From Chrysoperla carnea (Eukaryota; Arthropoda; Insecta; Neuroptera; Chrysopidae), in assembly GCF_905475395.1 (NCBI RefSeq), contig NC_058339.1, forward strand, positions 88,050,520-88,114,519: a stretch of 64,000 bases of DNA, written 5' to 3'. The notes beneath the pieces were generated by a model, which saw only the letters and a program-made list of their open reading frames with translations, was not told where the DNA came from and ran no database searches. The position numbers were made by a program, and so were the translations under genes. Shown here in pieces: positions 9,101 through 44,223 of this stretch. Every line of letters begins with the position of its first letter. The stretch's first letter is position 1.

Positions 9101-12100
9101 CCATTAATTAAACGTATAGCAAATACGTTCAATTCATCCATAAAACCACTGCTTCCAGAAGTTTTTCTGTTCTTTTTTTCACAGTAGACGATTTGCATTC
9201 ATACAATAAAACAGGCCACCCATAACACTTGAGCAATCCAGTCTTTGTTCTTTTAGAAATGTTTTTGTTTACCAGTAACAACCTGAAATTATTAAAAGCT
9301 ACCTTTTGCGAGGGTCACACGTCTCTTGATCTTATGTGCACATCTACCGTCTTTAAGAGATAAGAGATCCAAGATATATACATATTGGTTCTCTAGTTCC
9401 ACCATGGTGCTATGAATTCTTAATTTGCATTTGGTTTTTGTTTGCTTATCACCATGCACTTTGTCTTACTTGCGTCTATCTAGAAATAGTTTAAAAACCT
9501 TTCGAAAACTCAGAATGATGTGTCCGTTACAGGTTCGAGAGAAATAATAAATACCAATTATTTTTCAACGTCCTTGCTTTTCCTATTAAAATATTGGATT
9601 GTTTAATTTATAGAATATTAAATTTTAAACTTTATGTTACTAACTTAAAATTTAATATTTGTTATGAGATAAAACATTTAGAGATAAAAAAAAAATATCG
9701 ATATTTTTATAAATATAATTTCCATTGTGTTAATATAAAAATTTTGTCCCGCGAATAAATATGCCTAAAGTTTTGAGTTAGCTTATTCCTTGAACAATTT
9801 TGAGCTGAAAATGTCTCTAACATTTTTGTTCAAAACTCAAGGTCTATAAAACGGTAGTCCCCAAACTGATTTGGGAATATAATGAACTTTCCACCTACAT
9901 GAGAATGAAATGCTTGGGGGAATGCCAGGGCTCATAGTTTTTTATTAATTTCCAAAAGAAAGAGGTTATAATCCGGATGTCGATTTGACCATATTACACA
10001 TAAAAATGTAAAACTAGACTTGATACCATGACAAAATTTGAAAGTGAAATTAAAATTGATTAAAAAATGAAGAAGTTATGTAAGCAATCAAAGATTGCAT
10101 TCAAAGGTTGCCCATCTCCTTTTAGCAAAACAAAGTTTTATATGTAATCTCCATGGCGATACTCACGTATGACTTCACTAGTGGGTATCTTTCTCTTTGT
10201 TTAATCTTTAATTAGGAATTTTAAACATTCATATCTTGCATACCAGTAAAGATTTTTAAAAACCAACTTCACTTTTCTATTCGTGAAGTGAGAATTCTAA
10301 ATCTGAAGCGATAAAAAAAATTTATTCCAATCCTCTACTATTAGTTAATTAATAAATTGAGCAGTTAACTAATTAGTTTAGATCCCTTTATCCTGGACCA
10401 TACCCTCGTGGCAACACTCTTAAACGTAACAGTTAATTTACAGAAATTATAAATAATTATATCTTTCCAGATTTACCTAGATGGAATTATGATGGAAGCT
10501 CCACTTATCAAGCAAATGGTGAAAATTCTGATACATATCTCCAACCAGTAGCCATTTATAAGGATCCATTCCGTCGTGGAAACAACATTTTAGTATTATG
10601 TGATACCTACAAGTTTAATTTGGAACCAACTGGTAAGTTATTTCGGAAAAAATTTAATGATTGCCTGTCACAACAAATGTGCGATTATATGAATTTAACT
10701 GGCTTTACTCGTAAGGCAGTACGAGTAACTCGTAAGAAAAACAAAAGCCGCATCATTATAGCTTATAAAGAAGAAAAGGGGTAGTTTTTGGGATATTTTT
10801 CCCATTTTCGGGGGTTGTGATATAGGGAGTGAAATTTTTCGAACTATTTTTTAATTGGACTTGATTTTGAGTGGATTGGTGAAAATCCCACCTTTCTAGC
10901 TTGTATAGAACAGAAAAAAGACAGTTTCCGAGGGGTTTTCTCAGTTTCGAAAAAGGACGTGCAATGAAAAATTGGTCAAAAATTGGGAATGCTGCAATGA
11001 TTATCTGAGTTTATTGCCTCATAGATAATTTAATCAAGTTTTATTTTGTTCTGGGGAAAATTTGTCATGACACATTCACTTTTAACTTTGATTAGGCGCC
11101 ACAAATTTTGATTCATATAAAAGAACATTCGATGCCAAAGAATTTTCAATCTAAAACTATTCAATTTGAAACTAATCGCTCAACTTATGTTTTTAGAAAC
11201 AAACCATCGCATATCATGTTTAGCTGCGATGAAAGCGGCTGCAGATCAAAAACCATGGTTTGGTATTGAACAAGAATATACATTACTCGATCATGATGGC
11301 AGACCTTTAGGATGGCCTAAAAATGGTTTCCCAGGTGCACAAGGTCCATACTATTGTGGTGTTGGAGCTGATCGAGTTGTTGCTCGTGATATTGTCGAAG
11401 CACATTATCGTGCATGTTTATACGCAGGCGTAAATATTGCTGGTTCAAATGCTGAAGTGATGCCAGCCCAATGGGAATTCCAAGTTGGGCCATGCGAGGG
11501 TATTAAAATGGGTGATGATTTATGGATGGCACGATTTTTATTACATCGTATTGCTGAAGAGTTTGGTGTTATCGCTACGTTAGATCCAAAACCAATGCCT
11601 GGTGATTGGAACGGTGCCGGAGCCCATTGTAACTTCTCAACGTTAGCAATGCGTGAAGCAAATGGTATTGTGGACATTAATCAAGCTATCGAGAAGTTGA
11701 GTAAATGTCATGAGAAGCATATTCGAGCGTATGATCCTAAACAAGGATTAGACAATGCTCGCCGATTAACTGGCAGACATGAGACTTCATCTATCCACGA
11801 TTTTAGTGCTGGTAAGTGAAGCGAAAATTAACCATCAGATTTATTGTTGATAATATTAGTTAAGGTAAATTATAGCGTAGTAAAAGAGAGTTTTGAGAGG
11901 AGAAAAACAAATTTTTCGGTTAACTTTGGTAAAATAAAACTTTTTATTAGAAGAAAAGTTATTCATATCCCTATCCCTAAACATTAAAAATTTGAAAGTA
12001 AGGTTTGTTGTTTGTTTGTTACGCTTTCACGAAAAAACTATTGAATGAATTTGAATGAAATTTGACAATAATATAGCTCATACATTAGACTAATACATGA

Positions 12101-14587: not shown

Positions 14588-16372
14588 ATGGATTATGGTA
14601 AGAAAATTTTATAATTTTTTTTATCGTATTAAAAAAAAATTTTTTTTACAATTTTTATTCCCCTTTATTTTTGGTAATGGTACAAATTATTGTTAATTAA
14701 ACTTGAAGATTATGGTGAAATGTGCAAAGAATTTTATTCAAATAATGGTGAAATCGATGAAGATATTGATGAAAAACAAACAAAACTTGAACAAAAATTA
14801 CATTCCGAATTAATTTTGGAGGATGAAGAATTGTTTTCAAGTAATGATGAGAATATTGATGATAAAGACATATTGAAAAAAATTAAAATTGAGAAAGAAT
14901 TACATTCAGAATTAATTATAAAAGATGAAGATGAAATATCTGAACGAAGTGACTCAGAGAATAATGAAAAAAACTCAGAGAATAATGAAAATTTCACAAC
15001 TACTGAGTCATTAATTGGTCACAAACGACGTAGCCACAATCGAAGCAAATTAGTTCGACAAGTTCAAACAAGGAAAAAAACTTATTCATGTAATATTTGT
15101 AATAAATCATTCAGCACAAGCTCAAATCTCACTAAGCATAAACCTATTCATACTGGAGAAAAACCATTTTCTTGTAATGTTTGTAAAAAATCATTTCGAT
15201 ATCAATCGAGTGTAATTGTTCATAAACGAAGACATACTGGAGAAAAACCATATTCATGTGAAGTGTGTGATAAAACATTCGTTAGTGCCGGTGATTTAAT
15301 TGTACATAAACGAAGTCATACTAAGGAAAAACCGTGTGCATGTGATATTTGTGATAAAAAGTTCAAAGATATTTACTTATTAAATATACATAAACAAAGT
15401 CATTCCGGAGAAAAACCTTACAAATGTGATGTTTGTAATAAAGCATTCGTTTATAAAAGTTATGTTCGTCAACATAAACGAATCCATACAGAAGAAAAAC
15501 GTTATTCATGTGAAATTTGTAATAAAAAATTTACTGCAAAAGGTAGCGTAATTAGACATAAATTAACTCATACAGAAGAAAAATCATATTCATGTAATAT
15601 TTGTAATAAAAAATTTATAGAAAAAGGAAATTTTATTGTACATAAACGAAGACATACGGGAGAAAAACCATATGCATGTGAAAAGTGTGATAAAACATTC
15701 GTTAGTGCAGGTGATTTAATTGGACATAAATTAATTCATACCGAGGAAAAATCATATGTATGTGATGTTTGTGATAAAAAATTCAAATGGAAAAAAACAT
15801 TAATTAATCACAAACGAATTCATACCGGAGAAAAACCTTACTCATGTGATGTTTGTAAGAAATCATTTACATTTAAAAGCCATTTATTCCATCATAAACA
15901 TATACATACTAGAGAAAAACCATTTTCTTGTGAAATTTGTGATCAAAAATTTACTACGAATTTAATTTTATCGAGACATAAACGAGTTCATACAGCAGAA
16001 GAATATTTTAATTGTGATGTTTGTGGTAAAATATTTTTTTCTAAAAGTCATTTAACTACACATAAACGAATTCACACGGGTGAAAGACCTTATTCGTGTA
16101 CAGTGTGTAATAAAAAATTTATACAAACAAGTTCCTTAAAAAAACATAAACAAATTCATACTAGGAATGGAGAAGAAATAGAAAAATCATTATCGTGTAA
16201 TATATGTAATAAAAAATTGAGTAAAAAAATTAATTTAATGAAACATAAACGACTTCATACTAAACAAACACCATATGCGTGTGAACGTGAAGATTGCGAC
16301 CAAATATTTACAAATAAACAGGAATTGTATGATCATGAACATCAAAATGTTCTTATTTTAATTAATAAATAA
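14588..16372 (+). CDS. C2H2 zinc-finger protein, 14 fingers plus one degenerate
   Basis: Likely a nuclear DNA-binding protein; target unknown. A 10-nt first coding exon at 14588-14597 (ATG GAT TAT G, donor GTAAGA) joins in phase to 14709-16372 after an AG at 14707-14708, giving [14 protein letters not shown] and 557 aa. If that micro-exon is wrong, the next in-frame ATG is at 14720. The N-terminus is acidic and carries a repeated motif, [11 protein letters not shown] then [12 protein letters not shown]. Fourteen C-x2-C-x12-H-x3-H fingers follow, mostly joined by HTGEKP-type linkers. A last finger ([10 protein letters not shown]) has altered spacing and ends HEHQN. Just before finger 1, [10 protein letters not shown] looks like the tail of a lost finger. 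Fingers 2-4 closely match 7-9, so a five-finger block has been duplicated. An AATAAA overlaps the stop. Confidence 0.88.
16364..16369 (+). terminator. AATAAA overlapping the zinc-finger stop codon
   Basis: The hexamer is in the last codons (Asn-Lys) just before TAA at 16370-16372, followed by a 15-base T run. If used, the 3' untranslated region would be only about 20 nt. Confidence 0.4.
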
Positions 16373-21166: not shown

Positions 21167-23658
21167 TTAATTAGTTTTCTGTTTATGTGGATTCTTAGAA
21201 CCAATAAATTGTTTAATTATTAATTTAATTAAAAAGTAAGTAACACTTAAAACAATTAAAACTAATATAATTGAAATGAACATAACATCGTACATGTAAT
21301 ATTGATACCAAGTTAAGTTCACACTGTACGGTCGTAAATGTGGCGCTCCTTTATGTCTGATCACATATTCAATCCAATAAACTGCGGTTTCCATTGCAGA
21401 CATTGGTCGATCTTTGTATAATTCTGACAAATATTTCATATTTCTTTCGTATCTGTAAAATAAACAAAGTTTTAAAATTTAATTCAAACTTTATCGAACG
21501 TTATTTAACTTACTTAGGATCGTATAAAACTTTGTTTAACGCATTTAAAATATTTGTTTTCGTTAAAGTTTCGTAGGATAATTTTTCTGCAATGCCCTTT
21601 TCAACATATTTTCCAATATTTAAATCTTGATCACCAAAGAATGGAAGACCAATTAAAGGTGTTCCACATGCAATTGCTTCTTGAGTACCCATCAAACCTC
21701 CATGCGTAATAAATACTTTTGTTTTTGGGTGACCTATAAAATTAGATCTTTAATAATATTTGTAAATTAGTCATAAATTAACGTGCTTGTCCTTAATTCG
21801 AGAGTCCATAAAAGTTTTCTTAATTTATCCAAAAATTAAAATAAAATATTGCAGGAAAGTAAGATTTCCTGGCCTGTGAAAAACAAAAGTCGAAGCGAAA
21901 CTTTTTATTTCATACTCCAGGGCTTCCATGAAATAATCAACTTGAGTGGCTTGTTGGAGTATTGCTTCCTTATAAAGGTCGATCTTCTCGGATCAAATTG
22001 CGGCCGAGGCCGTGCTTTCGGTTTGGGGATCAAGAAATATAATTTTATGAAATAATTAAAATTGAATATCATACATAAAATCTCTAATTGTGGTAACCAT
22101 GTATCAAAATAGATATTTTTCGGTATTGGTGCAGGAAATTTATCTTCCTCGCCTTTCCAAATCACAGTAAACGGTAATTCACCAAAAGCATCCAATAATG
22201 CTCGCTGTTTTTCGATTGTAAATGATTCAGTTCGTATCATTGAACCCAAACAGAAATAAATCACACCATTCTTTGATTCATTCAAAACTTTTTCCAAGTT
22301 CTGTAAAAACCATTCTAATTAGATCAAAAACTACTTGGAATAAGCCATGACAATCAACTTACAGTTGGTAATTTTCCAGTTGGTTTTCCAACATGAAGTC
22401 CAGCCACTTCCACAACATTTGGTGGCATCGGTCTGGCCCCATTTATACTGAAATGACTGTTTACAATCAATAGACTTGTGTTTTTTATAAAATTTGACAA
22501 AGATGGTAAGTTTGGATCCAATTTTTCACGTACAATTTTATTTGATTCACTGAGAGTTAGGTAATTAAACCTAAAACGTAAGTTTTCAGTATTAAAATAT
22601 TCATCCTTTGCATTTCTTGAAGAAAATTAATGTTTACGGAAATAAATCAAATGTTTTTGAGTCGATCCATTATAATGACTTTCATAGTAAAATTTTTTAA
22701 ACCTTGGCTTGCATTTTCGTAGAGATCTCATAATTTTTACCCATGAATCTTGCTATCATGTATAGAAAGAAGTTTTCGAATCCGAAAGGTTCGATATATA
22801 TTACAGGTTGCATAAGCACTTACCTAAACTTGGAGTAAACATTTAACATTGTATTAATAAATCGTTCATATAACGACATATTTTCCGTGAATGGTAACAA
22901 ATAATTTGGTATGTACGATGGATTATCTGGTAAACCAAATCGATCTGGTATCCATGGAAGAGCCACACTACTTACAATTGCAACTGTGGGTACTTTAAAT
23001 GAATGGGCAAACGCTAGCATACAATCTGTTCCAAAGATTTCTGTTATGATTACATCATATTTATGTTTCGATTTATAAAGATCTTGTATTTTCGTTTGAT
23101 TTAAAACCATTTCGCATATTCCATTACCTCCTAGTAAAGCAATAAAATCGATACAAACAATTGGAGTCCATTCTGACATCACATCCACTGTTAAACTATT
23201 TTTAATAGATGGCATAGATCCTTCAATACTTATGTCATTGTACCTAAAATGGAATAGAAATTTTATTAAACTTAATTTTTTAATACCCTCCAATATTTCA
23301 CGCGCGTTTTATTTGTAGATTTCTTCTTTGAAGATTACTTCTCTGTATTTATTCGGATACCGCTTGACCGATACCATCAAATATTGTGGAATTTGCGGAT
23401 CGACGGAGAAAGCATGCGAATTAAACTGCAAAAAACGCACATTGGCTAGAAATTTTTCGAATTTTTATACCTAGGTATTGGTTTTCTTTGTGGAAAATGT
23501 GAGACAACATCAACCGTATGCCCCTTTTCAGCTAAACCTTTCATTAATGCCTCAAACATAGCCCAATGACTTGTGCCATGAAATGGAAATAATCCCAAAA
23601 TTCGAGCTCCATAATTTTCATTTATAAGTAAAATTAAAAGCAGGAATGTAAATTTCAT
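21167..23658 (-). CDS. UDP-glycosyltransferase, membrane-bound (complete, 6 exons)
   Basis: Transfers a sugar from a UDP-sugar to small lipophilic compounds in the ER lumen; a typical insect detoxification or pigment enzyme. Exons are 23658-23471, 23243-22824, 22570-22363, 22300-22075, 21733-21514 and 21452-21167, with every phase matching, for 515 aa. A hydrophobic signal peptide (MKFTFLLLILLINENYG) is followed by FPFHGTSHWAMFEAL with the likely catalytic His. DVIITEIFGTDC holds the likely partner Asp. The donor-binding signature runs from WLPQLEILCHP through FITHGGLMGTQEA to GLPFFGDQ at about 338-383. One C-terminal membrane segment (MFISIILVLIVLSVTYFLI) precedes a basic tail ending KQKTN, which fits the K-x-K-x-x ER-retrieval motif. 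The single gene shows no breaks. The sugar and substrate cannot be read from sequence. Confidence 0.95.
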
Positions 23659-26866: not shown

Positions 26867-29800
26867 TCATTTATTACAGACCCATGAATGTGGAATTATA
26901 GATGCAAACATGGAATCATTCTGGTAATCACAATTACGACGAGCAAAAAACTCCATTGAATAGAAAGCAATCATTAAACCATTACCAAAACTTAATCCAG
27001 TCCACATAAACATGTTACCAGCATTTTTAGTTATTTTCTCTAATTGTTTTGTTATAAATATTGCAAATAATCCAATGCCAGCGAAAAAGAAAAACATAAC
27101 CGGATAAAAGAATCCAATGGACATTGCAACAATATATTCATGGAATATGGATGAAATTATGAAAACACTTAAAAATGGAAATAATTTATTATTACGTCCA
27201 AAATTTTCATGTAAATCTTTATACACGTAATTGTACAGCCAATCATGGACAATTATATTCCATTTACGAAAATATTCACTAAAATTTGTTGCATTCCACC
27301 AATCCTATTAAAAAAATTCTTAGCTCAATAAAAGACTGCAAATAAATGACCTCGGGCGGACACTAGAGACACGAGAATACCACCAATTCTACATCGAATT
27401 TACAACCAAAAATTTTCTTTGGAGTTATTTATACTCTTTTTTTCAAAATTGGGTAAAAAAACACAAAAAATGTATTATTTTGCAAAAAAAATCATTTGTA
27501 AGGGTCAAATTTTCTACCAAAAAAAAAAATGCATGCTCAGGAGATCAAAATACATTGAAAAACTTAGGTAGGCCCTATCAATATAATCGATAATATAATC
27601 GATATGGACATTGGGAATTCCAAAATCATGATTTTTATTTCTACAAAGTAAAATTGTTTTCGAAATGTGCCATACCTTATAAAATAATCGATCAGCAAAT
27701 CGTAAACCTTCTGCCCAAGCATTATGCCATGAATGTAAAAACAAATAAAATCCCGAAAAGTATATGAATAATGCTGGACAAGTCAGTCCAATAATTTTGA
27801 ATAACAATTTTTTGGTCTCATAATGAACGGTTCCATAATCATCGAAAACATTAAAAATAAATCGTTCCGTGAGATTGCTCAATAAAAATAATACCATTAT
27901 TGTTTCAAAAACGTTCCATAAAAGAAATCCCCAACGAATTTCTTTTGTTCTATAATCATAAAAACAATAAAATTATTTTCGAGATAAATGTGGAGAGATC
28001 ACTTTTTTTTACCTTGGATAACTATCTTGATAAATCAACGTTGGAGCAAATAAAAAGTATAAGTACTTTGAAAATCCGGGTAAAATTTGATTTTGAACTC
28101 CAGTCTGTGGTTTGAGTGAATCGTTATGGTTTAACACCCGCGTTATATTACTGCGTACAAACGCATGACATTTCATCATAAACCGCGCTTGTTCACAAAA
28201 GAATGCCATTCCAGTTCCAAATGTGTAATGATTAAGCCGAACCAAATATGCAAAACCACACATAAAAGTAATTTGGTATAAAATATACAAAATTATCCAT
28301 AAACGATCCCAAATATAAATTGAAGTCGCTGGAAAAAAAAAACATAAATTTTAAGGTATATTTCGAACTATGGTCCCGCCATCTGTGAGTAAGACAGTCA
28401 AGTTATCAGATATCTTTGTCGGTAATGTAGGTATATAGAAATGTTTAAAGATGAATAGAAAGTGTCGAATTTAAGGTGAAGACATCCTCCATAAATATGT
28501 ATATGTGTAAATACTTTGAATGAGTGAATAGTTTTTGAGATATCGCCTAAAATCCTGTGCGAAAAGCTTTTTTCATAGTGAAACTGGAAATATCTCGAAA
28601 AATTTTCATCTTATCTTCGAATGAGGTGGTTTTTTTTTTGGACTTAATTCTCCATAATAATCGGGCTACGCGCTTGCTAATATTATTTCATAAAATATTG
28701 TATATTAAAAAAAAATCTATATTATTTCTTACTTTTTGGCGTTAATTGGACATGGATGTGAGCCCAAATACTAAAAAAAGTATATACAAATTGCGTTGCT
28801 ACAAACATACAAATCCATAATATGGCAATCGTAAAAAATCCTTGAAATGTTGTTTGTATTGTGGACAGTCCAAAATTTATACTAAAAATTATTAAAATTA
28901 CTAAATTAATTTAAAATTCCAAACAAAATGATAAGTAATCTTCAAATTTTATGTAATTCTTAGAAGTGACCAAAGAGTGCAAAATATCTCAGTATTAATT
29001 AGACGATATAATTAGAACAAAAATATTAATTTAAAAAAAAACTACTTTAGGAAAAATACTTTATTGTGTTGAAAAAATGGACGGATTAATTTTTCCTTTT
29101 TAATGAAAATTTTTTGTATTAAAATGAGTTATAATTACCTTCCAGTTTCAAAATAATCGCCAATGGAAGAATGCAAGAATAAAAACGAAATAATTACAAC
29201 AAATATATTGTGAATTGTACTGATATGTTTGATATCGAATAAATCCGTTAACAGCGAATTTCGTGGAATAAATTTTTTATCACGTAATTGTCCATGACGA
29301 CTTGTAGATCTAAAAATAATTTTTTCGAAAATTTAATTACCTAATATACGATGTGTTAACAATTTCTATGACACCATGCAGTATTTGTAGAAAAAGACGA
29401 AATAAAACTTTTTGAAAGACTATAAATTTCCGATATTTTACTTTATTTTCGAGATATCTAACTTTCGTGACTTTTCCAAAATAGTTTTATTTCGGCGAAT
29501 TTTACAAAAATCATTTGATGGTCTCGCAACAGAAATTTCAGATTTATAAAACTCGATAGAACTGGAAACATACTTTTTATTATTTTTATTAAATAATTGA
29601 TTGAATTCATGCGAGACTCCACATTTTTCGACATCTTTCATAATTTCCCCCACCAAAGTTGATAATTGTTCGTTAATATTTTCTAATGTTGAATTTTGTA
29701 AATCCTAAAAATAAAATTTGTCAAAAAATTGGTATCTTTTAAATTTTTAAGGTATTTCCAAAATATATCAGCTGATCGGGTAGTAACAGATTAATAATCT

Positions 29801-33203: not shown

Positions 33204-36200
33204 TTATTGTAAATTTGTATAATTTCCACAATTTTGTTGTGGTATTAAATTTGGAAGATTATTATTGATTGGAGCACGATGCTGGTGATACGTTGAATTC
33301 TCATACACTCCACTTGAACTCACTGGCTGTAAATTGAATTTTTTTAAGTGTTAGAAAGCAAAATTTAGGGGCACTAAGATATTGAAACCATTTCAGAATT
33401 AATTTGAAGGGAATTTATTCATTATAACGTATTGACTTAAAAAATAAATCGTATTTAACAGAATCTCTCCGAAAAACCCGGACATAAGCTAGGGGGAAAC
33501 ATTAGAGGGGTACCACAAATGGGTTCCTTGTACCTAGCCCAAAGGCTCTTAAACCACCTTGTTTGTTATCATTTATCAATAAAACCCGACCCAATTCTGA
33601 TTTAATGGTTTCAATATTATAATATTAATTGAAAATGTTACCTTATTGATTTCCGGGAAAATTGTGCTTAAATTGAAGTTAGCTAAACTGTTTCCGCCAA
33701 CGGACGATGGTACGTTGACGCCAGCCGTTGGTGTAGACACAATATTTTGTGTAGTTGGTAACGTAGGATTACGTGTCGCTAACGAAACGGACGTTGCTAG
33801 CGGTGGTAATAAATTACACGATGAAGTATAAGTAGACGCGATTAAATGATCTGGATGTTGATTTTTGGAATAACTTTGCGAATAAATCTGCGAAGAATTT
33901 GTATTATTTGTTGTGTTAAATAAATTTGGAACATGGAATGGATCATCTGTTGGCAGCAATGATGGTGAATTTGTCGATGATATTGACAAAAATCCTAAAT
34001 CAGAAAAACCTGGCAATGTTGTTGTTGACGTACCGATTCCTCCCGAAGACGGCGGTGGTTCGGTTAAATTTGGTTTACGTTTATTAGTACGCTTTATATT
34101 CGAACATGGAACGGAAACATTTCCCGCAAGTTTACGATTATCTTTTACCTTTGAACAAGCTTTAATTTGATTCGATGCGCCCCCACTAGATGAAAATAAA
34201 GATGGTGTGTTATAATTATCATCAAATTCTTGATAATTTTGGAAGTTTTGATAATTTTGTGGATAATAGTTTGTGGATTCTTGAGGTGTTGAGTATTCAT
34301 TGTTATAGAACGGTTGAATAGGATCAAATGTTGGTACATATCCACGTTTTGATGTTGAGTATGGATAATTTGTGGAACTTTGGCCACTAATTAAGGCCTC
34401 GGCAGAATATGTACTCGAACAATTTTTATATACATGTTTATTGGAGTCCGTTGTGTTTTTCATCCAATTTTGTGTCTCGTTTTGAGTATTATAATATCGT
34501 TCAACTGTTTTGTGTTCGATTTTAGATTGATTCTTATAAACATTTTTGTTATTCGAGGATTCTGTTTGTTTTACCCAATTTTGCGTCTCAAAAGTTGTGT
34601 CAGAAATATGTGGCACAAATGTAATCTCCTTGTTGCCACAATTATAGCGTTCGATTGGTTTTTGTTCACTTTTAGGTGGATTTTTATGATTTGAAGAGTC
34701 TGTGGATTGCTTTACCCAATTTTGGGTTTCGAAAGATGAGTCAGAAATTTGAGGCACAAATGTCGACTCCTTGTTGTTGCCACAATTATAACGTTCAATT
34801 GGTTTTTGTTCGCTCTTAGGCGGATTTTTGTGATTCGAAGGGACTGTAGATTGCTTTACCCAATTTTGGGTCTCAAACGATGTGTCAGGGGTATGAGGTA
34901 CAAATGTGGATTCTTTGTTATTTCCACAACTATAGCGTTCATTGGATTTTTGTTCACTCTTAGGTGGATTTTTGTGATTCGAAGGATCTGTAGATTGCTT
35001 CATCCAATTTTGAGCGTCATATGGGATATCTGAAACATGAGATACAAATGAGGCCGCTTCTTTGCCACAACTGTTGTATCCTTCAATAGTCTTTGATTCA
35101 CTTTTCGATGAACTCTTATCCGTGGGATGCTTTAACCAGTTTTGAGTTTCAAATGATGGTATTTCTGAGACATGAGTGTTACTGCAATGATATCGTTCAG
35201 TTTTTCGCTCACTTTTCGATACGTTTTTATGATTCGAAGAGTCAGTGGATTGTTTTAACCAATTTTGAGTGGCAAATGTCGTATTTGTAACATGAGACAC
35301 AAATGGTGATTCTTTAATTGCGGGGCTACAATTATAATTTTCAACCGTTTTTTGATCGCTTTTTGGCGGATTCTTATCTGTGGATTGTTTAATCCAATTT
35401 TGAGTTCCATATGATGTGTTTGAAACATGAGATACAAATGGTGGCTCTTTAGTACCGGTACTACAATTATAGCTCTCAATTGTTTTAAAATCGCTTTTTG
35501 GTAGATTCTTGGAATCCGTAGATTGTTTCATCCAGTTTTGGTTCTCATAAGATATTTCTGGAACATGTGATACAAATGTTGACTCCTTACTTGTCGTGTT
35601 ACAATTGTAGCGTTCGATTGTTTTTTGTTCATTTTTGGGTTGATTCTTCGATTGATCCGTGGATTGTTTGATCCAACTTTGGGTATCGTATTGAGAGTCA
35701 GCAACATGAGACGTAATGTATGATTTTTGTTCATTTTTTGTTGGATTTTTATGGTTACTCGAAGGGGATTGTTTGATCCAATTTTGGTTATTTGGGTATA
35801 GTGGTTCGGAAAATGTAGCCTCCTTGACACCGGCACTACAGTTATAATTTTTTTGTTCATTTTTCGATGGTCGATGTTGTTTTAAAGACGGTGCTTGTAC
35901 TTTCCGTGGGGATGTTTTAATTCCACGCTGTTCCGATTTCCCGTGATCAACCAATTGACTGACAGACAAAAATGTATTATTCGGTGGATTCTCCGAATAT
36001 TGTGGTTTGCTCGCCTTCCCTTGTTGATCTTTATTACTCCCGAAAGATTGTTTAACAATTTTTTTCGAGTAATATTCTTCCGTATTCGGAATAAAATCTT
36101 TTGAACTGTCATACTTCGCGCCAAGTGTATATGTTGAAGTCGTACTCAATGCTAAATCACCCATTAGCATGGGTAAAGTGGAAGGGGGTGCAATATTTAC

Positions 36201-39200
36201 ACTTGTTGTTGAAGACGATGTCCATAGATATTGTTCTTCTGTATAATTCCTCGAATCTCCTCCAACTTCTTCAATATATTTAAAATATTTTGTTTTCGTC
36301 GTACTTCCGCTACCAAAGTCTGGTAAAAATGACGTTGTATTATCTGACATTGTTGTGGAAGGTGTTGTCATCCAATTTACTAAAGGTTTTTGGGAGGATG
36401 TCACAGGAATACTTTTAAAATCAGGATATTTAAATTGTTCTCGATTGTTATAATTTGTAGTCGTGATTTTCGAAATGTATGGTGCTGATGTTTTTGTAAT
36501 TTGTAAGTCTATGGTCGATGTGGATACAGTTCCAGAATTTGATAGGAGTGATGTGGAATTAGAATATGGTATGTCCGAATAATTGACTTCCATTGAGGAA
36601 TTATTCGATGTGGGAAAAGATATCGAAGAAGTGGTTGGAAGCGATTTAGAATTTTTATTGCATGTAACCGGTGTATGTTCGTAATTAAAAATATGATTTT
36701 GAAATGATGGAATTTCTGGAATCAAAGTATTTGTATTAATTGTATCCAGAATATTTGCAGATCCTTTCAATTTAGGCTTTGGTTTGAAAGGATCTACTAA
36801 ATTTTTTTTCGGTTTTACGGTTGTGGTGTAAAAATTTGGGATATTATCGAAGGAAATTTGTGACTCAGTGTGTTGTTTAGTTTCGATATTTCCAATTTGT
36901 AACAGTGTAGGTGGGTCATGTTGACTCTCGGAATTCTCGTCATCAGCGTTTTCAGTTTTTCCACCCGTTAGCGTCGATACCAATGGAAACGCTAATAAAA
37001 ACGCGGCAGTTGGAGAAATTGATTCTGGATGTCGATTTTGAATGTTTAATGTCGAAAATAAATCATTAGAAAAATCTGAATGATTTTGTGTTGGAAGCGT
37101 AAGCGATAAATTTTCTTGGGGTTTCGATACTGTTGATACAGCAGAGTCCAAGATCGTTGAGGTTGATGTTTGAACCGTTACTGAAGTTGTTGGAATATCC
37201 AAAAATGATGTCACTGGTGAGGAAACGTTGTTTTCACCGGTGGTTTTCGAATTTTCGGTTTCTTTTACAACATCTTGTTGCGTCTTCTTTTCTTCGTTCG
37301 ATGATTCCGTTTTAGCACACAAAGAGTCAACACTATAATTACTAACAGGAACTTTTTTCTCTGGAATTTCTTCACTCTTAGTGTCCTTACGAGGTTCATC
37401 TTCAGTGCTGTTTTTTTCAATTAATTTAGGAACTTTCTCCGGCGGTTGATTTCCGGTTTCCTTCTCAACACAGTCACATTTCTTTGGAGACGTGATTGTA
37501 TTTTTACGCTTTATCGATTGTTTATCACTATTTTGGACAGTTATCGTAGATGTTTTACTATTTACGGCTTGTTTCTTTTGATTCTCTTTGCCAATCACTT
37601 TTCGTCCAAATTTCGATGTTAATGCAGGTATTGGAACTTTATTAACAGTTGTGGTTTTAGTGATTCCAGGCCGTTTAATAGCAATTCGTGGATATTGTTT
37701 TAAAATTGTCGTACTTTCATTTTTTCTGGTGTCGATAATATTTGTTTGAGGTGGTTTTCCGACTACAAGCAAAGTTTGATTTGTGGCAGGTGCTGTATTT
37801 GTCACTAATAATGTTGGCTGTTGAATAATTGTCGCAGGTGATGGGCCAGGTAATATTGGGAATACATTACCATTAGCTAGAATTAGTGTACCTGGACCTA
37901 AACTGGTTATAGAACGGGAATCTGTTGTGATTCCAGTTGCCATAATTGGTGTGGACAGTAGAGTGGAATTTGTAACGCCTGCTGCAAAATCGAATATATT
38001 ATCTTTAGTCATACTTTCCCCGAAAATTAACAGAGAACAAATGAGTGTAAACCTGATATTGGTACCGGGACACAAAGAATTATTGTGAAGCCGAAGAGAT
38101 TGCTAGATATGGCACAAGGCTGCCGAACACCTGAATGAGGATATCTCAAAAAAAGCTAATTTTAGATGTAGGGAGAAACGTACTTGAAGTACTACAAGAA
38201 AGATATGGTCTGGTTACAATCATATGAGTTCCGAAGACCTTATATAGTTTCAAAGGGAGCCAAAATTTTTGCAGAAGCTGTCACAGTGAGGAGGAGGAGA
38301 CGATGTTTCATTTTCTCTGTCACTGTCCAGCTCTTGCCATGAGAAGATGGACTTACTTGTGGCAGCTTTTCTTTGACGACCTGTCCGACTTGAAGTCCGT
38401 TGACTTCAAAGCACTACTGCTGTTCTTAAGCAGCTTCAAATGGTTCATGGAGTAGTGGTCGAGAATGAGCCAACCCTTTTTCAGTATTACAACGGGTCCT
38501 ATGGTCAAAGTGTATCCCACTCTAGGACAGTCACTCTGGCCTAACCTAACACCATTTTTTAATTTTTAGAAGAAATGGGGTGGTTTTTTTTTGAAGCTAT
38601 AACGTTATATTCCAGAAAATGTGATTCAGCGTGACGAAGGGTCCAAAAAGAAGAAACAAAATGAATTTTCCTTACCATTTTTACAAGTAATCGTTGGATT
38701 ATTGATAATAATCGATGAAGTTTGTGATTGTATCGAATTCGAATGGTACGGTACAATAGCCTTTGACGATGCCGTCGAATAGCTGGTCACATTCAACACT
38801 TGACTAGAGCTGTTCTGTGTTCCCACATTATTGTTGTAGTGTAAAACTTTTAAAGTTTTTGATTTTAAGGGTTTTTTAATTTTTTTATTTGTTTTAATTT
38901 TCTTATTTTCATTGTTTTTTGTTTTGGTCTTTTTTAATTTCACCTTTTTTGTATCTTTTGTCTTTTCATTTTCTTTCTCAGCTGTAAAAAAGGGAAAAAT
39001 TGCAATGTAAAAATTCGAAAATCGAGTTCATTTAACGATTGGCTAAGTAACTTCCAAGAAAAACGATATCGATGATGAACTTTTGATACGTTTGCTCGAA
39101 AATTACTTACTCACTCGTTAAATTCGTCCCTAAAAAAAGTTCGATTTACCATTATTTACTTGTTCAGCTAAAATATCAGCTTTTTCTTTAGTAATTTTAT

Positions 39201-41123
39201 TCGACCATAACTTTGGCTTACAGAATTGTTTATCTGCTTTTAATTCGGTTGGAATTCGTATTCCAGCATTTTGTAACAATGCAACTAATTGTTCGTTTCG
39301 ATTCAATAATTTTTGAATGCGTGTGTCCAACATTTGTAAATCACGTTCTAAAAATGAAGAATATAAAATGTTAATTTTTAGGACAACCATTTCAGAACGA
39401 CTGAAAATTTAAGACGCTGTTATTACGGCGACATACTAGTCCAAAAATTTGAAAAAATCGACTTTTTTGTGCATATTTTCAACGTTTAGACCCTTAAAAA
39501 TATACCTTTAAACGGATTTTTCAAAATTTGAATTATTAACCCCCGAACTACAAAAAAGGGGTTTTATAAGTTTGACCGCTATGTGTGTGTCTGTCTGTTT
39601 GTGTTTATAATTTAATTTATTGGAGAGTGTTCTAAGCTATGTTTCAAGTGCGAATTTGGGGTACCGTACCCAAAAAAACTAAAAAATTGGCGATGATCTT
39701 CAAAATCGGCTCAGTTTGGAAAATGCTTTAAGGTAAAATTTAATTTAATGATTCCGTACTCGAAAATTGGTCGGGGTTTTTTAAATTTTGTAAATTTTCT
39801 TTGTTTTCGGAGATACAGTGAATTTTATGACGAAACATCTAAGCCGGCCGAGTAGAAGGCATCAAATAATAAATGGTAGATGTTGCCGGACGATTTGAGG
39901 ACTCATTCATTCCAGGAACTCCAGTAGAAGAAGGTCGAATGCATGGATTTGGAATCGCTGATTAATCCAAAGTGAGTATTAAATATTATTATCCGACTTA
40001 CTCAGCCGGAATTGTATCTCAAATTTTAAACGCTTTTTTCTCAATACAACTTTTTTCAAGGTGGTTGATATGATATCTCAAGTTTAACCCGATCGATTCA
40101 TTTGGAAAGGGCTGGAATGTTGTCAACCAGGGTGCAAACTTTTTTTGATAGCCCCCACTTTACCAGTCTGTAATACGACATTGTATTTATTTTTTAACCC
40201 CCGAACCAAAACAGGGGTGTTTTACTGCTATGTGTGTCTGTCTGTGGTATGGAAGCGTCTGAACGGATGAACCGATTTGAATTTTTTTTTGTTTCGTTTG
40301 AAAGGTAATTTAATAGGGAGTGCTCTTAGCTCTGTTTCAAGTGCGTGTTTAGGGTTCCATTTTTTTTAATTGAAGTTGTTTCAAGGAGAGTTAAGACAAT
40401 GCCGCCAACTTAGCCAAATCTTTGTTAATATAAAAGCTTTAGCTAATCATTAAACTATGATTAAGCTTTTGTATAAGACCGTATCAAAAATTAAATTGTA
40501 TTGACATAGATCTTTCTAGGAAAACTTTCATCAATGGGAACTTATCATTTAAAGGGCTAGAAACATTTTTAATTTCCACACTATCAAAGTTTTATACATT
40601 TGTTTACGTTATTTCAGAATCAATCGATTTTATTTCAGAAAATGTAAATAATTTTTCAAATTTGTAAGTTTTATCTCGGATAGCAGAAATAAAACTAATA
40701 GATCTAATGTACAAATGATACTTTCCGAAATAAAGCTGTTAAATCTGATATTTTCTGGTCTTTCTAACCGTTCTGAAATGATTACGCCTAGCTTTAAACT
40801 TAAAGTTATTGAACAGAAACTTACTTAAATCATCGTGTAAACTTTGATCTCCATTAATTACTTTTTGCTTGAGTGTTTGTAACTCTTTGATATAACTTGT
40901 AGCTCCTTTCAAAATATCAGATTTACTGAGAGGTACTGATGGATCATATGAAGGTAAAACTTTGCTTAGACCATTAAATTGTGTTTTAAGCCGATTACGA
41001 CGTTCTCGTTCCCATTGACGGCATTTTCTACAACATTTTTACAAATACATTTTGGTTGGTTTCGAAAATTTTTTGATAGGTTAAATTAAATTTGTATATT
41101 AACTTAGGCTCTCTTTTTGGCAT
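33204..41123 (-). CDS. USF3-like bHLH-leucine-zipper protein, about 1729 aa, 6 exons
   Basis: Probable E-box-binding transcription factor. Exons are 41123-41104, 41027-40825, 39347-39150, 38981-38676, 37981-33642 and 33326-33204; phases 2, 1, 1, 1 and 0 all match. The 20-nt first exon (MPKREP) joins through a weak GTTAAT donor over a 76-bp intron, so the start is less sure. The basic region KCRQWERERRNRL, helices (FNGLSKVLPSYDP, KSDILKGATSYIKEL) and a zipper (MLDTRIQKLLNRNEQLVALL) follow. A Lys-rich segment precedes the 4.3 kb exon, which is Ser/Thr/Asn-rich. That exon holds the tandem 48-residue units at about 34430-35860 and ends near STYSAEALI and NFNLSTIFPEINK. From memory, layout and the C-terminal motifs fit USF3 (KIAA2018), and no database comparison was possible. 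A LINE fragment lies just upstream of the big exon. Confidence 0.75.
34430..35860 (-). repeat. intragenic tandem repeat coding about ten 48-residue units
   Basis: Within exon 5 of the USF3-like gene. Each unit runs roughly YNCxxxxKESTFVSHVSDT then SFETQNWIKQSTDSSNHKNP then PKSEQKTIER. I count ten near-full units and an eleventh partial one (ETQNWMKNTTDSNKHVYK). The units closest to the C-terminal side (three in a row with NCGNNKE and ETQNWVKQST) are the most alike, so expansion there is the most recent. Invariant positions are the QNW(I/M/L/V)K core and the KSE/KNEQK basic stretch. All units keep the reading frame, and lengths vary by a few residues. Confidence 0.9.
38017..38546 (+). mobile_element. 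LINE 3' fragment (RNase H and C-terminal zinc knuckle)
   Basis: Antisense in intron 5 of the USF3-like gene. It reads on the plus strand as NREQMSVNLILVPGH, the WVPGH-type end of a LINE-encoded RNase H, then in a shifted frame CEAEEIARYGTRLP. Near 38277 follows CRSCHSEEETMFHFLCHCPA, the C-terminal Cys-His motif of insect LINEs of the I/LOA/R1 kind, closing at a TAG at 38453. The 3' end reads GGCCTAACCTAACAC. It is 5'-truncated, with at least one frameshift and one early stop, so it is dead. Its left edge is about 35 bp from the splice acceptor of exon 5. Confidence 0.85.
39530..39690 (+). repeat. dispersed repeat family E, copy 1
   Basis: AACCCCCGAACTACAAAAAA, GGGGTTTTATAAGTTTGACC, GCTATGTGTGTGTCTGTCTG, then GAGAGTGTTCTAAGCTATGT and TTCAAGTGCG. 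It lies in intron 2 of the USF3-like gene. The matching copy is at 40195-40360. I recall very similar repeats from other insect orders; that is memory, not a search. Confidence 0.7.
40195..40360 (+). repeat. dispersed repeat family E, copy 2
   Basis: AACCCCCGAACCAAAACAGG, GCTATGTGTGTCTGTCTGTG, GATGAACCGATTTGAATTTT, GTTTGAAAGGTAATTTAATA, GAGTGCTCTTAGCTCTGTTT and TTCAAGTGCG. It has the same block order and orientation as copy 1, about 660 bp away in the same intron. Confidence 0.7.
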
Positions 41124-43070
41124 TATAATTTAAATTCATCATATTTTTATGTGCTTTTACGTTTTTATTTTCGAATATCAAACATTAAATTTAATGAAAA
41201 ATTGTCGAAATGTTTTACTGAAATTTGACATAATAATTAACTTTTTTGTTTTGGTGCAAGTTCTGACATCTATTAGCTGAACTTCGGAAGGCGGCCGCTT
41301 GACTAGGTTAGTTAGTGTTCCATCAAAAATGGTTGGAATTTTGAAATTTCGATTGAATTTAATTTTGTTTGTTATGTAACAAGATTGTCAATTGAATTCG
41401 TACTTTTAAGTAAGTTTGAAAATCAAGTTTACATTTATAGATTAAGAAATAATTTAAATAAAAGGATCTAGTTCATCTTTTTTAGAGCCAAAAAATTAAA
41501 CTTATTAAATTTTTGTTGTGTTGTGCTGAAACTCAATGTTGTACAGGGAGGTCCGTCATATTTGGGCAGAGGTACCATAGATAAAATACAGTAGTAGAGG
41601 ACAGAGGTACTTATTTGAATTTCAACATTACAAAATAAATATATAATTTTGACGTGATTTTTTTTCTGTCGTTGGTACTGTAATATTGTTTTAATTGGTT
41701 TTTTAATTTGAGAAAATTAATGCCACAAATTTAATATTTTGTCTCCAGAATTTAAAAAAAATTCAAAATTCTGAATTTGTTATTGAAATATGGTGAGTAA
41801 CCTGATGGTCTAAATTGAAACTACAGAAAACGGGTCCACTTCAGCTGTAGTAATTAGTACAAATTATTATCGCTAGTTGGCAGGATTTATCTGATTTGAA
41901 TTTGAATATTTAGATTGGCCTTTAAAAATGATAAGTATAAGTATTGCAAAGTATTTCAGTATTGAAAACGAGTTCATTTCCTGTTTTAATTAGTACGAAT
42001 TATTATCGTCAGTTGGCAGGGTTGCAACTCCCAGTTATCAATAATCTTCTAATACATAAAGCTCAAAAATTTAAAAGAAAAAAAAATGACTTAAATAAAA
42101 GTGACATATTATTTAGTATGTTAAACTAATCTTAAAAAAAAATATGGTTTTCCAATGAAATTCACCTTTATTTGACTTTAAAATGATTCGCTCAGAAAAA
42201 AAACTTAATGTCGGAAATGAGTATCTCTCGCCAAATGACAGAACTTTTGTACGAAACATTCCGAAAATAAATGTACTCCACAGAAAAAAAATCAGACTCA
42301 ATTATGATGGAATACCCCATATGTCATATTTCTAATGTAAATCTGTATTAACGACAACACATTGTGCTATGGGCTGTTTTTGTACGCAATGGGTATTTTT
42401 GTTCTTTGATCCTAACACTCACTTATAAATAAATAACACAGAGACGGACTTAAGGACAGTGCGTTGAAATTTTACAATATACAATTTTTTTAACGGAATT
42501 TATTTAACTAATAAAAATAATAATCGCCTTTTGATTCTGTCTGTCTTCGCGCGGATGCAAATTTTTTTAAATTATTTATTTTTTTAATTAATTTACGATA
42601 ATTTATGAAAGTAGAAATTTTTACTTTTTGATCTATAGAAGTTGGAGCAACTATTATCGAAAATATGTATGTGTTACATTCAATATTTTTATTTACAATA
42701 ATTCCTATTTTAAATGATTAATTAAATGAAAACCCTTTGTCAGGAAAGCCTTTTGTATTTTATACGTATGAGTTAACATAATTAACATATCAAAAATTCA
42801 GACTTATTATCTATACATTGCTTGAATGTCCAATCAACCTTAAGATTTCTATTTTAATTAAATGAATTTATTGTTTCACGTGTGTAAATAAAATACAAAC
42901 TTATTAATGCTTATAATTATATTAAAAATTCATTTTATATAATTGGAGAAAATTTTGTTGTTTGCTTATTTTTATTCCTGAAATGAAATACAAACATTTC
43001 CAAAGACTTGTGTTGATGTTGTCTGAATTCCTTAAATCCATTTCCGCCCATGTTCGTTCGTTCATCGGCC
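41124..43070. other. intergenic region upstream of the USF3-like gene
   Basis: AT-rich, with no coding exon recognised on either strand. A GCGGCCGC-containing patch at about 41285-41325 (AGGCGGCCGCTTGACTAGGT) resembles CGCCTTTGACTAGGTTAAGT at 61263. The promoter of the USF3-like gene is expected here but no motif is clear. Confidence 0.5.
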
Positions 43071-44223
43071 CTATTTAGTAGCAGGAGGCGCAATTGGCGG
43101 CTCTGGTGCCTTTTTCCATTCTAGTTGTGAGGCATAATGATAACCTAAAATTTAATTTTTGTTTTGTTTATTTCTTTCTCCATTCTAGTCTGGTGCAACA
43201 AAAATTACCTAAAATATTAAATTTTCTTATTTTTATTTTAGATTATTTATGTTGTGGAAAATTCATTTTTTTTTTAAATCAACGTTTTTGGAATTTTTAA
43301 ATTTTGGTTGATATGGTTGCGTTCAGCCGAAATAGGCTTTACTGAGTTTAAGGATGGTACAGGTTTTTAAGATGAGCAGTAGTTCTTCTTATCTTAGTAG
43401 CTCATCTTAAAAAAAGATTATCAAATATGGGGTGCCGGTACTAACATTTATTTTTTAACTAGTGTTCAATAAATTAACTGAGGATGTACTAGCCCTTGTA
43501 ATGTAAGAAATAAGCCAAAGGGTTGCCATCTAAAAATTACGGGATCTCGGGAGATCAAAAGAAAATCGGGAAATAATCTAATTATAGTGACGAATCATAA
43601 TACTGTGTGATTTTTCAAAATTTGTCAAATTTTTCAGTTATTTAACTTTAAATACTCCGAATTTCAATCGCCAATAACTCGGAAAGTATTGACTTTTCGA
43701 AATATACTTGAATGACACATTTTGCTTAAATTTAATCGCTATATCGCCATTTTCAACATTTTTCATACTTTAGAAGGTTGGGTGATTACCACCCCCTGGG
43801 CAAAAGCATCACAAGGCACCAATCAACTTTTGATCTAGAGGGTGAACAAAGCTTAATACCAAATTTTCAGGTCAATCGAAGCTATAGAATTTAGAGGTTT
43901 AAGCCTCGTTTACTGGACATATTATTGAGGTCTGGCGATTTATGTTGATTTATATTAAGACACAAATGGAATAATTGATTTCACTTACATATTTTAATTC
44001 CTATAACTGCAAGGAAAAACACTATAAATGGATCTTTGAGATATCGTTCCACTATTTGACAAAGTGTACGATTACCGCCCCGTTCATTCGCTGGACACGC
44101 TCTTCGTCGTCGATTCGGTGGCGGGCAATAGTTTGACCTTGTGTTTCTTGCTGGTTCACAACAACTAAGGTTCTCATCCTGATCGCAGCCATCCGGGGGT
44201 TGACAAGATTCAGTTGACGGCAT
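43071..44223 (-). CDS. unrecognised small Cys-rich single-pass membrane protein, 102 aa
   Basis: I do not recognise the family. Two exons, 44223-43989 and 43144-43071, join GTAAGT to TTTTAG in phase 1. The N-terminal 45 residues are rich in Cys and Pro (MPSTESCQPPDGCDQDENLS, then CCEP, NYCPPPNRRRRACP), with a strongly basic RRRR stretch. A helical segment (LCQIVERYLKDP) leads into one membrane span (FIVFFLAVIGIKICYHYA), and a short Pro-rich tail ends in ATK. The in-phase join of two open segments with good splice sites is the main support. Topology is probably N-in with the basic run cytosolic. No neighbour suggests a function. Confidence 0.7.
43363..43412. other. short hairpin with 14-bp perfect stem
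   Basis: TTTTTAAGATGAGC and GCTCATCTTAAAAA flank a 22-bp spacer in the intron of the small membrane protein gene. The stem is short for a microRNA precursor, and no function is assigned. Confidence 0.5.

Follow-up and report, generated by a model that had tools for sequence, protein, structure and literature searches.

What is the tandem array that lies within one exon of a bHLH gene in this part of the Chrysoperla carnea genome, and were its units copied recently or have they been kept for a long time? An earlier note on the locus had proposed that a linear motif in a transcription factor is expanding at present. We examined the array, its gene and the silent sites of its units across the whole stretch of DNA analysed (64,000 nucleotides, hereafter the window).

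The array and its units

The array runs in frame on the minus strand. Unit borders were set by cutting after each Q[NS]W[IMVL]K core, and the bit scores listed with the units are from a leave-one-out profile.

34422-35870, minus strand: whole array, 11 units plus a trailing 12-residue fragment (Tandem Repeats Finder, core count and leave-one-out profile)
35772-35870, minus strand: unit 1, 33 residues, short, 25.1 bits
35667-35771, minus strand: unit 2, 35 residues, short, QSW in place of QNW, 26.2 bits
35526-35666, minus strand: unit 3, 47 residues, 79.1 bits
35388-35525, minus strand: unit 4, 46 residues, 74.3 bits
35253-35387, minus strand: unit 5, 45 residues, 77.3 bits
35130-35252, minus strand: unit 6, 41 residues, 49.0 bits
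34998-35129, minus strand: unit 7, 44 residues, 53.0 bits
34854-34997, minus strand: unit 8, 48 residues, 76.9 bits
34710-34853, minus strand: unit 9, 48 residues, 92.3 bits
34569-34709, minus strand: unit 10, 47 residues, 89.7 bits
34458-34568, minus strand: unit 11, 37 residues, short, 23.6 bits

Eight of the 11 units are 41-48 residues long, and the three short ones have 33, 35 and 37 residues. The Q[NS]W[IMVL]K core is kept in every unit, as is a K-x-[ED]-x-K patch. Tandem Repeats Finder detected the array independently, with a period of 144 at 34566-35012 (score 604) and periods of 135-138 at 35245-35682 (scores 328-376). For the leave-one-out test, a profile built from ten units was scored on the eleventh and on 499-500 shuffles per unit. 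The units reach 23.6-92.3 bits against 8.5-12.6 bits for the best shuffle, and chance similarity is ruled out since each of the 11 lies above its own shuffles. The array is contained in a minus-strand open frame of 1508 codons (33576-38102), and the remaining five frames across it hold 8 to 57 stops. Its G+C content is 0.356, compared with 0.364 in the rest of the array exon and 0.292 in the window. The longest exact repeat within the array spans only 23 bases and silent divergence is high, so collapse or mis-joining in the assembly is unlikely.

Much of the earlier description of the array is borne out. The array is a single-exon, in-frame tandem array, and the proposed QNW(I/M/L/V)K core is present throughout, with one QSW. 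Divergence is graded, as had been noted: the three pairs among units 8-10 share 83-87% protein identity and the other 52 pairs 40-71%. The count of about ten units at 34430-35860 identified a real array and needs correcting to 11 Trp-Lys cores at 34422-35870, while the 48-residue unit length is a maximum found in just two units. A KSEQK stretch occurs literally in only three of the 11 units and is general only in its relaxed K-x-[ED]-x-K form; likewise the YNC box is literal in six units, and YxC is found in eight.

The unit profile found no further units elsewhere in the window, where the next-best six-frame segment has an E-value of 0.41. Upstream of the array, at about 36380 on the minus strand, the peptide VNWMTTP resembles the NW(M) core. 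It was considered as an ancestral single copy and rejected, as the unit profile does not rise above shuffles there.

The host gene

Five exons of the host gene were located on the minus strand. They were set by eye at AG/GT borders, their phases agree, and their joined frame encodes 1722 residues up to the stop.

40825-41027, minus strand: helix-loop-helix (HLH) exon, the 5'-most located (start-codon exon not found), with PF00010 at 40829-41023 and AG/GT borders placed by eye
39150-39347, minus strand: exon downstream of the HLH exon, without a Pfam match (gene model)
38676-38981, minus strand: lysine-rich exon (gene model), with an overlapping frame that is sub-threshold in Pfam
33642-37981, minus strand: array exon, 4340 nt (open frame and gene model)
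33204-33326, minus strand: predicted last exon, holding the stop codon (gene model)

The HLH exon matches PF00010 with an E-value of 3.8e-13 (49.5 bits, cut-off 20.7) and belongs to the same gene as the array, which upholds the assignment to a transcription factor of bHLH type. The best Pfam match of the frame overlapping the lysine-rich exon has an E-value of 0.04 and 15.1 bits, below the cut-off of 28.3.

The host gene is most likely the USF3 orthologue of this insect, a label that rests on two C-terminal peptide motifs. YSAEALI follows the array directly, NFNLSTIFPEI comes close to the end of the array exon, and similar peptides (YSAEALI and NFNxxxxFPEI) occur in human USF3, which gives a lead to the name. 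The HLH domain alone does not indicate USF, because Myc (E 1e-5) is the top hit of its exon among the 23 PDB sequences with E up to 0.1, ahead of MITF, Max, USF2 (0.023) and USF (0.062). USF3 (KIAA2018) also resembles the predicted protein in combining an HLH domain with a very long low-structure region without a Pfam match. We know of no such tandem array in USF3 proteins, and the open-licence literature that we found on insect or arthropod USF3 or KIAA2018 offered, in its accessible text, no treatment of USF3 repeats.

At about 43060-44220 on the minus strand there is what appears by eye to be a small two-exon gene for a short membrane protein; any USF3-like first exon farther upstream would be separated by it from the HLH exon. 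Other loci in the window include a glutamine synthetase exon (11121-11816, plus strand; Pfam Gln-synt_C, E 7.3e-16), two exons of a UDP-glycosyltransferase (21908-23308, minus strand; UDPGT, E 2.1e-9 and 1.6e-6) and an MBOAT acyltransferase exon (26870-27304, minus strand; E 4.1e-22). An open frame adjoining the MBOAT exon (27517-27972, minus strand) has no Pfam match and looks membrane-spanning.

Age of the units and constraint upon them

If the array were a recent and ongoing expansion, units 8-10 would be fresh duplicates and copy number would still be changing. These units do resemble one another most closely at the protein level (83-87% identity for pairs 8-9, 9-10 and 8-10), and they cluster in all three trees, with ultrafast bootstrap values of 92 for protein, 95 for codons and 65 for DNA. 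Against this, dS for pairs 8-9, 9-10 and 8-10 is 0.85, 0.73 and 1.17 by NG86 and 0.86, 0.80 and 1.36 in a GY94 fit. Each pair offers only about 29 silent sites and the upper dS limits are wide, with bootstrap limits of 0.38-2.69, 0.34-1.85 and 0.51 to 9.90 (the cap), and the lower limits alone are 0.34-0.51. Codons for the same residue differ at 12 of 39, 13 of 40 and 12 of 38 positions in the three pairs, where codon independence predicts 18.5, 18.8 and 17.3; over all 55 unit pairs, 428 of 1108 differ against 487.7 expected. The silent sites of units 8-10 are well diverged, short of full randomisation. Given the high dS and a longest exact repeat of 23 bases, no fresh copies are visible, and the proposal of a recent expansion, which we now regard as highly improbable, is not sustained.

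Omega among units 8-10 is 0.07-0.10 by both methods, and the GY94 likelihood-ratio statistics against an omega of 1 are 19.7, 20.5 and 26.0 for pairs 8-9, 9-10 and 8-10. Units 8-10 look young because their protein sequence is constrained and not because the copies are recent, and the array as a whole appears old and constrained at the protein level. High protein identity between units is thus no proof of recent expansion, and the silent sites need to be read. Units 4 and 5 also cluster (78 for protein, 52 for codons, 62 for DNA), and deeper nodes of the unit trees are mostly weak. The clustering of neighbours 8-10 and 4-5 fits local tandem duplication, by which the units may have been born long ago. 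Units 1, 2 and 11, the short ones, are missing some of the unit sequence and look eroded or partial. Most human protein repeats are reported to be old and fixed in number (PMC3995336), so that an old array is what one would ordinarily expect.

An old array could still be a spacer that evolves neutrally or almost so, a minisatellite within coding sequence that merely keeps its frame, and both its low structure and the range of unit lengths from 33 to 48 residues would suit such an origin. The low omega among units 8-10 argues against it, as does the number of amino-acid changes. Pairs 8-9, 9-10 and 8-10 differ by 8, 6 and 8 changes. When neutral evolution was simulated 2000 times for each pair, the average number of changes was 16.2, 14.7 and 17.9 and the lowest was 10, 9 and 11, so that all three pairs fall below the neutral minimum. 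Invariant full columns are likewise in excess: five of 16 are observed, and no more than two arose when units were simulated along the codon tree with omega held uniform (0.15, 0.25 or 0.36; kappa 3; 100 runs each). A neutral spacer is accordingly quite unlikely. GY94 fits to seven of the 55 pairs gave omega values from 0.063 to 0.401, the highest (0.40, statistic 3.2) for units 3 and 10, which is not clearly below 1. Constraint is usually weak as the repeats of a protein drift apart, and a survey reports a median dN/dS of 0.52 for pairs of repeats in human proteins (PMC5120217). Omega among units 8-10 is clearly lower, and this is the remarkable feature of the array, although a median obtained with another method in another species is a rough yardstick. 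Together with the diverged silent sites, an omega of 0.07-0.10 singles out the array as a functional device with many sites.

Constraint is unevenly distributed along the unit. Over the 55 unit pairs pN/pS is 0.36; it falls to 0.08 for the 16 columns of highest conservation and is 0.54 for the remaining 38, a contrast that is partly built in because these columns, like the blocks that follow, were chosen by conservation. By block, pN/pS is lowest at K16/E18/K20 (0.06), followed by TQNWxK (0.14), ERYNC (0.23) and KNPPKSEQK (0.24), and is looser in QSTD (0.39), KE..FV.H (0.53) and the eight columns preceding TQNW (0.61). The stretches outside the core are under mild constraint only (the 0.54 above). 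Conservation of the tryptophan does not stand as proof of constraint in its own right, since W was kept in all 11 units in 42, 27 and 20 of 100 simulation runs at omega 0.15, 0.25 and 0.36. The residue following W is I in three units, M in three, V in three and L in two, and nothing else, which suggests an aliphatic contact.

For control, 13 C2H2 fingers of another gene in the same window gave a mean pN/pS of 0.76 over 78 pairs. That gene lies at 14678-16372 on the plus strand, its 13 fingers are defined by pattern, and pN/pS among them is far looser than in the array. These fingers are overlapped by a match to BolA that passes the cut-off and is probably spurious.

Structure, candidate partners and a proposed function

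Structure predictions were made with AlphaFold2 for two units (mean pLDDT 50.0) and one unit (60.4), with pTM of 0.10 and 0.12. Neither the two-unit nor the one-unit model contains secondary structure, which is weak evidence for disorder because the alignment is so shallow (10-11 rows, all paralogous units). Serine, threonine, asparagine and glutamine make up 12-22 residues of each 33-48-residue unit, and all 11 units have 3-5 aromatic residues, evenly spread among polar linkers. Pfam searches at E up to 10 returned no family for unit 10 or for any of the 11 units, nor was a family found for the array exon, and no PDB sequence is related to the units at E up to 10. No relative turned up in viral contigs, searched with units 8-10, the post-array stretch and the HLH exon, or in GTDB contigs, searched with units 8-10; both collections consist of viral and prokaryote records and are uninformative on insects.

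By analogy with known systems, we propose, with a probability of about one half, that this bHLH factor, most likely the insect USF3 orthologue, carries its old 11-unit array as a disordered ladder of Trp-anchored docking motifs for one partner. The array would lie within the long, low-structure region of the factor. Each unit, presenting a Q-N-W-aliphatic-K linear motif together with the K-x-[ED]-x-K patch, would act as a single weak docking site, all units sharing one folded partner, and flexible linkers would allow many copies of the partner to be bound simultaneously. The closest precedent is ASCIZ (ATMIN), a disordered transcription factor whose output is reported to be tuned through multiple sites of a single motif: the human protein has 11 LC8 sites, and transcription drops as more LC8 is bound (PMC5963919). 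Both are transcription factors in which a short docking motif recurs as many as 11 times in a long region that is disordered in ASCIZ and, we infer, disordered here. In contrast to ASCIZ, which has zinc fingers, the present factor has a bHLH domain, its units lack the TQT anchor (0 of 11), and eight of the 11 are near-regular units of 41-48 residues that probably derive from tandem duplication. On this analogy the array might recruit its partner or measure it through the number of filled sites, as ASCIZ does with LC8, and graded filling could grade transcription. Multivalent partner binding, the idea put forward in the earlier note, would fit such a ladder.

Two other accounts of the array fare less well, and each strikes us as rather unlikely. 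The units could fold into a small repeat domain or a solenoid, overlooked by the predictor because its alignment was not deep, with W and the aliphatic residues as the core. The near-regular length of eight units is what such a fold would produce, as is the conservation of aromatic and aliphatic residues (F, V, Y/F and W); both models without secondary structure, the abundance of S, T, N and Q and the lack of a Pfam or PDB relative point the other way. Alternatively, W, Y and F could serve as homotypic stickers that drive self-association or condensates in place of binding one specific partner. A review on the disordered regions of bHLH proteins describes repeated short motifs in this way (PMC6862971), and the evenly spread aromatics and polar linkers of all 11 units agree with it. 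Stickers, however, depend on the type of residue more than on its precise sequence context, whereas the units preserve the Q, N and K that flank the tryptophan and also the K-x-[ED]-x-K patch.

An LC8 (dynein light chain) ladder, in which TQN would stand in for the TQT anchor used in ASCIZ, is very improbable. TQN does occur in seven units and Q in all 11, and LC8 sites that lack TQT are reported, if uncommon and mostly weaker (PMC12057147), but no unit has TQT, the T preceding Q is replaced in three, and W and the following K, each present in all 11, fall beyond the anchor triad. Two further candidates were considered and rejected. In GW182/TNRC6, many tryptophans in a disordered region serve as repeated docking residues, whereas here the residues flanking W are fixed on both sides. 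Argonaute-binding GW repeats have GW or WG pairs, which occur in none of the 11 units. The SUMO acceptor consensus is a large hydrophobic residue followed by K-x-[ED]; V, I, L, M or F precedes the lysine in none of the units, and six of 11 would qualify if P were counted.

Within the docking-ladder proposal, a bolder version would take Q-N-W-aliphatic-K and K-x-[ED]-x-K together as a Trp-anchored docking motif not described before, served by a dedicated reader domain, the 11-site ladder having been built in this lineage and transcription tracking the amount of reader. We hold this version to be doubtful; if true, the ladder would be an independent invention of hub sensing of the ASCIZ/LC8 type. 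The array supplies a precise motif with which to search for the partner.
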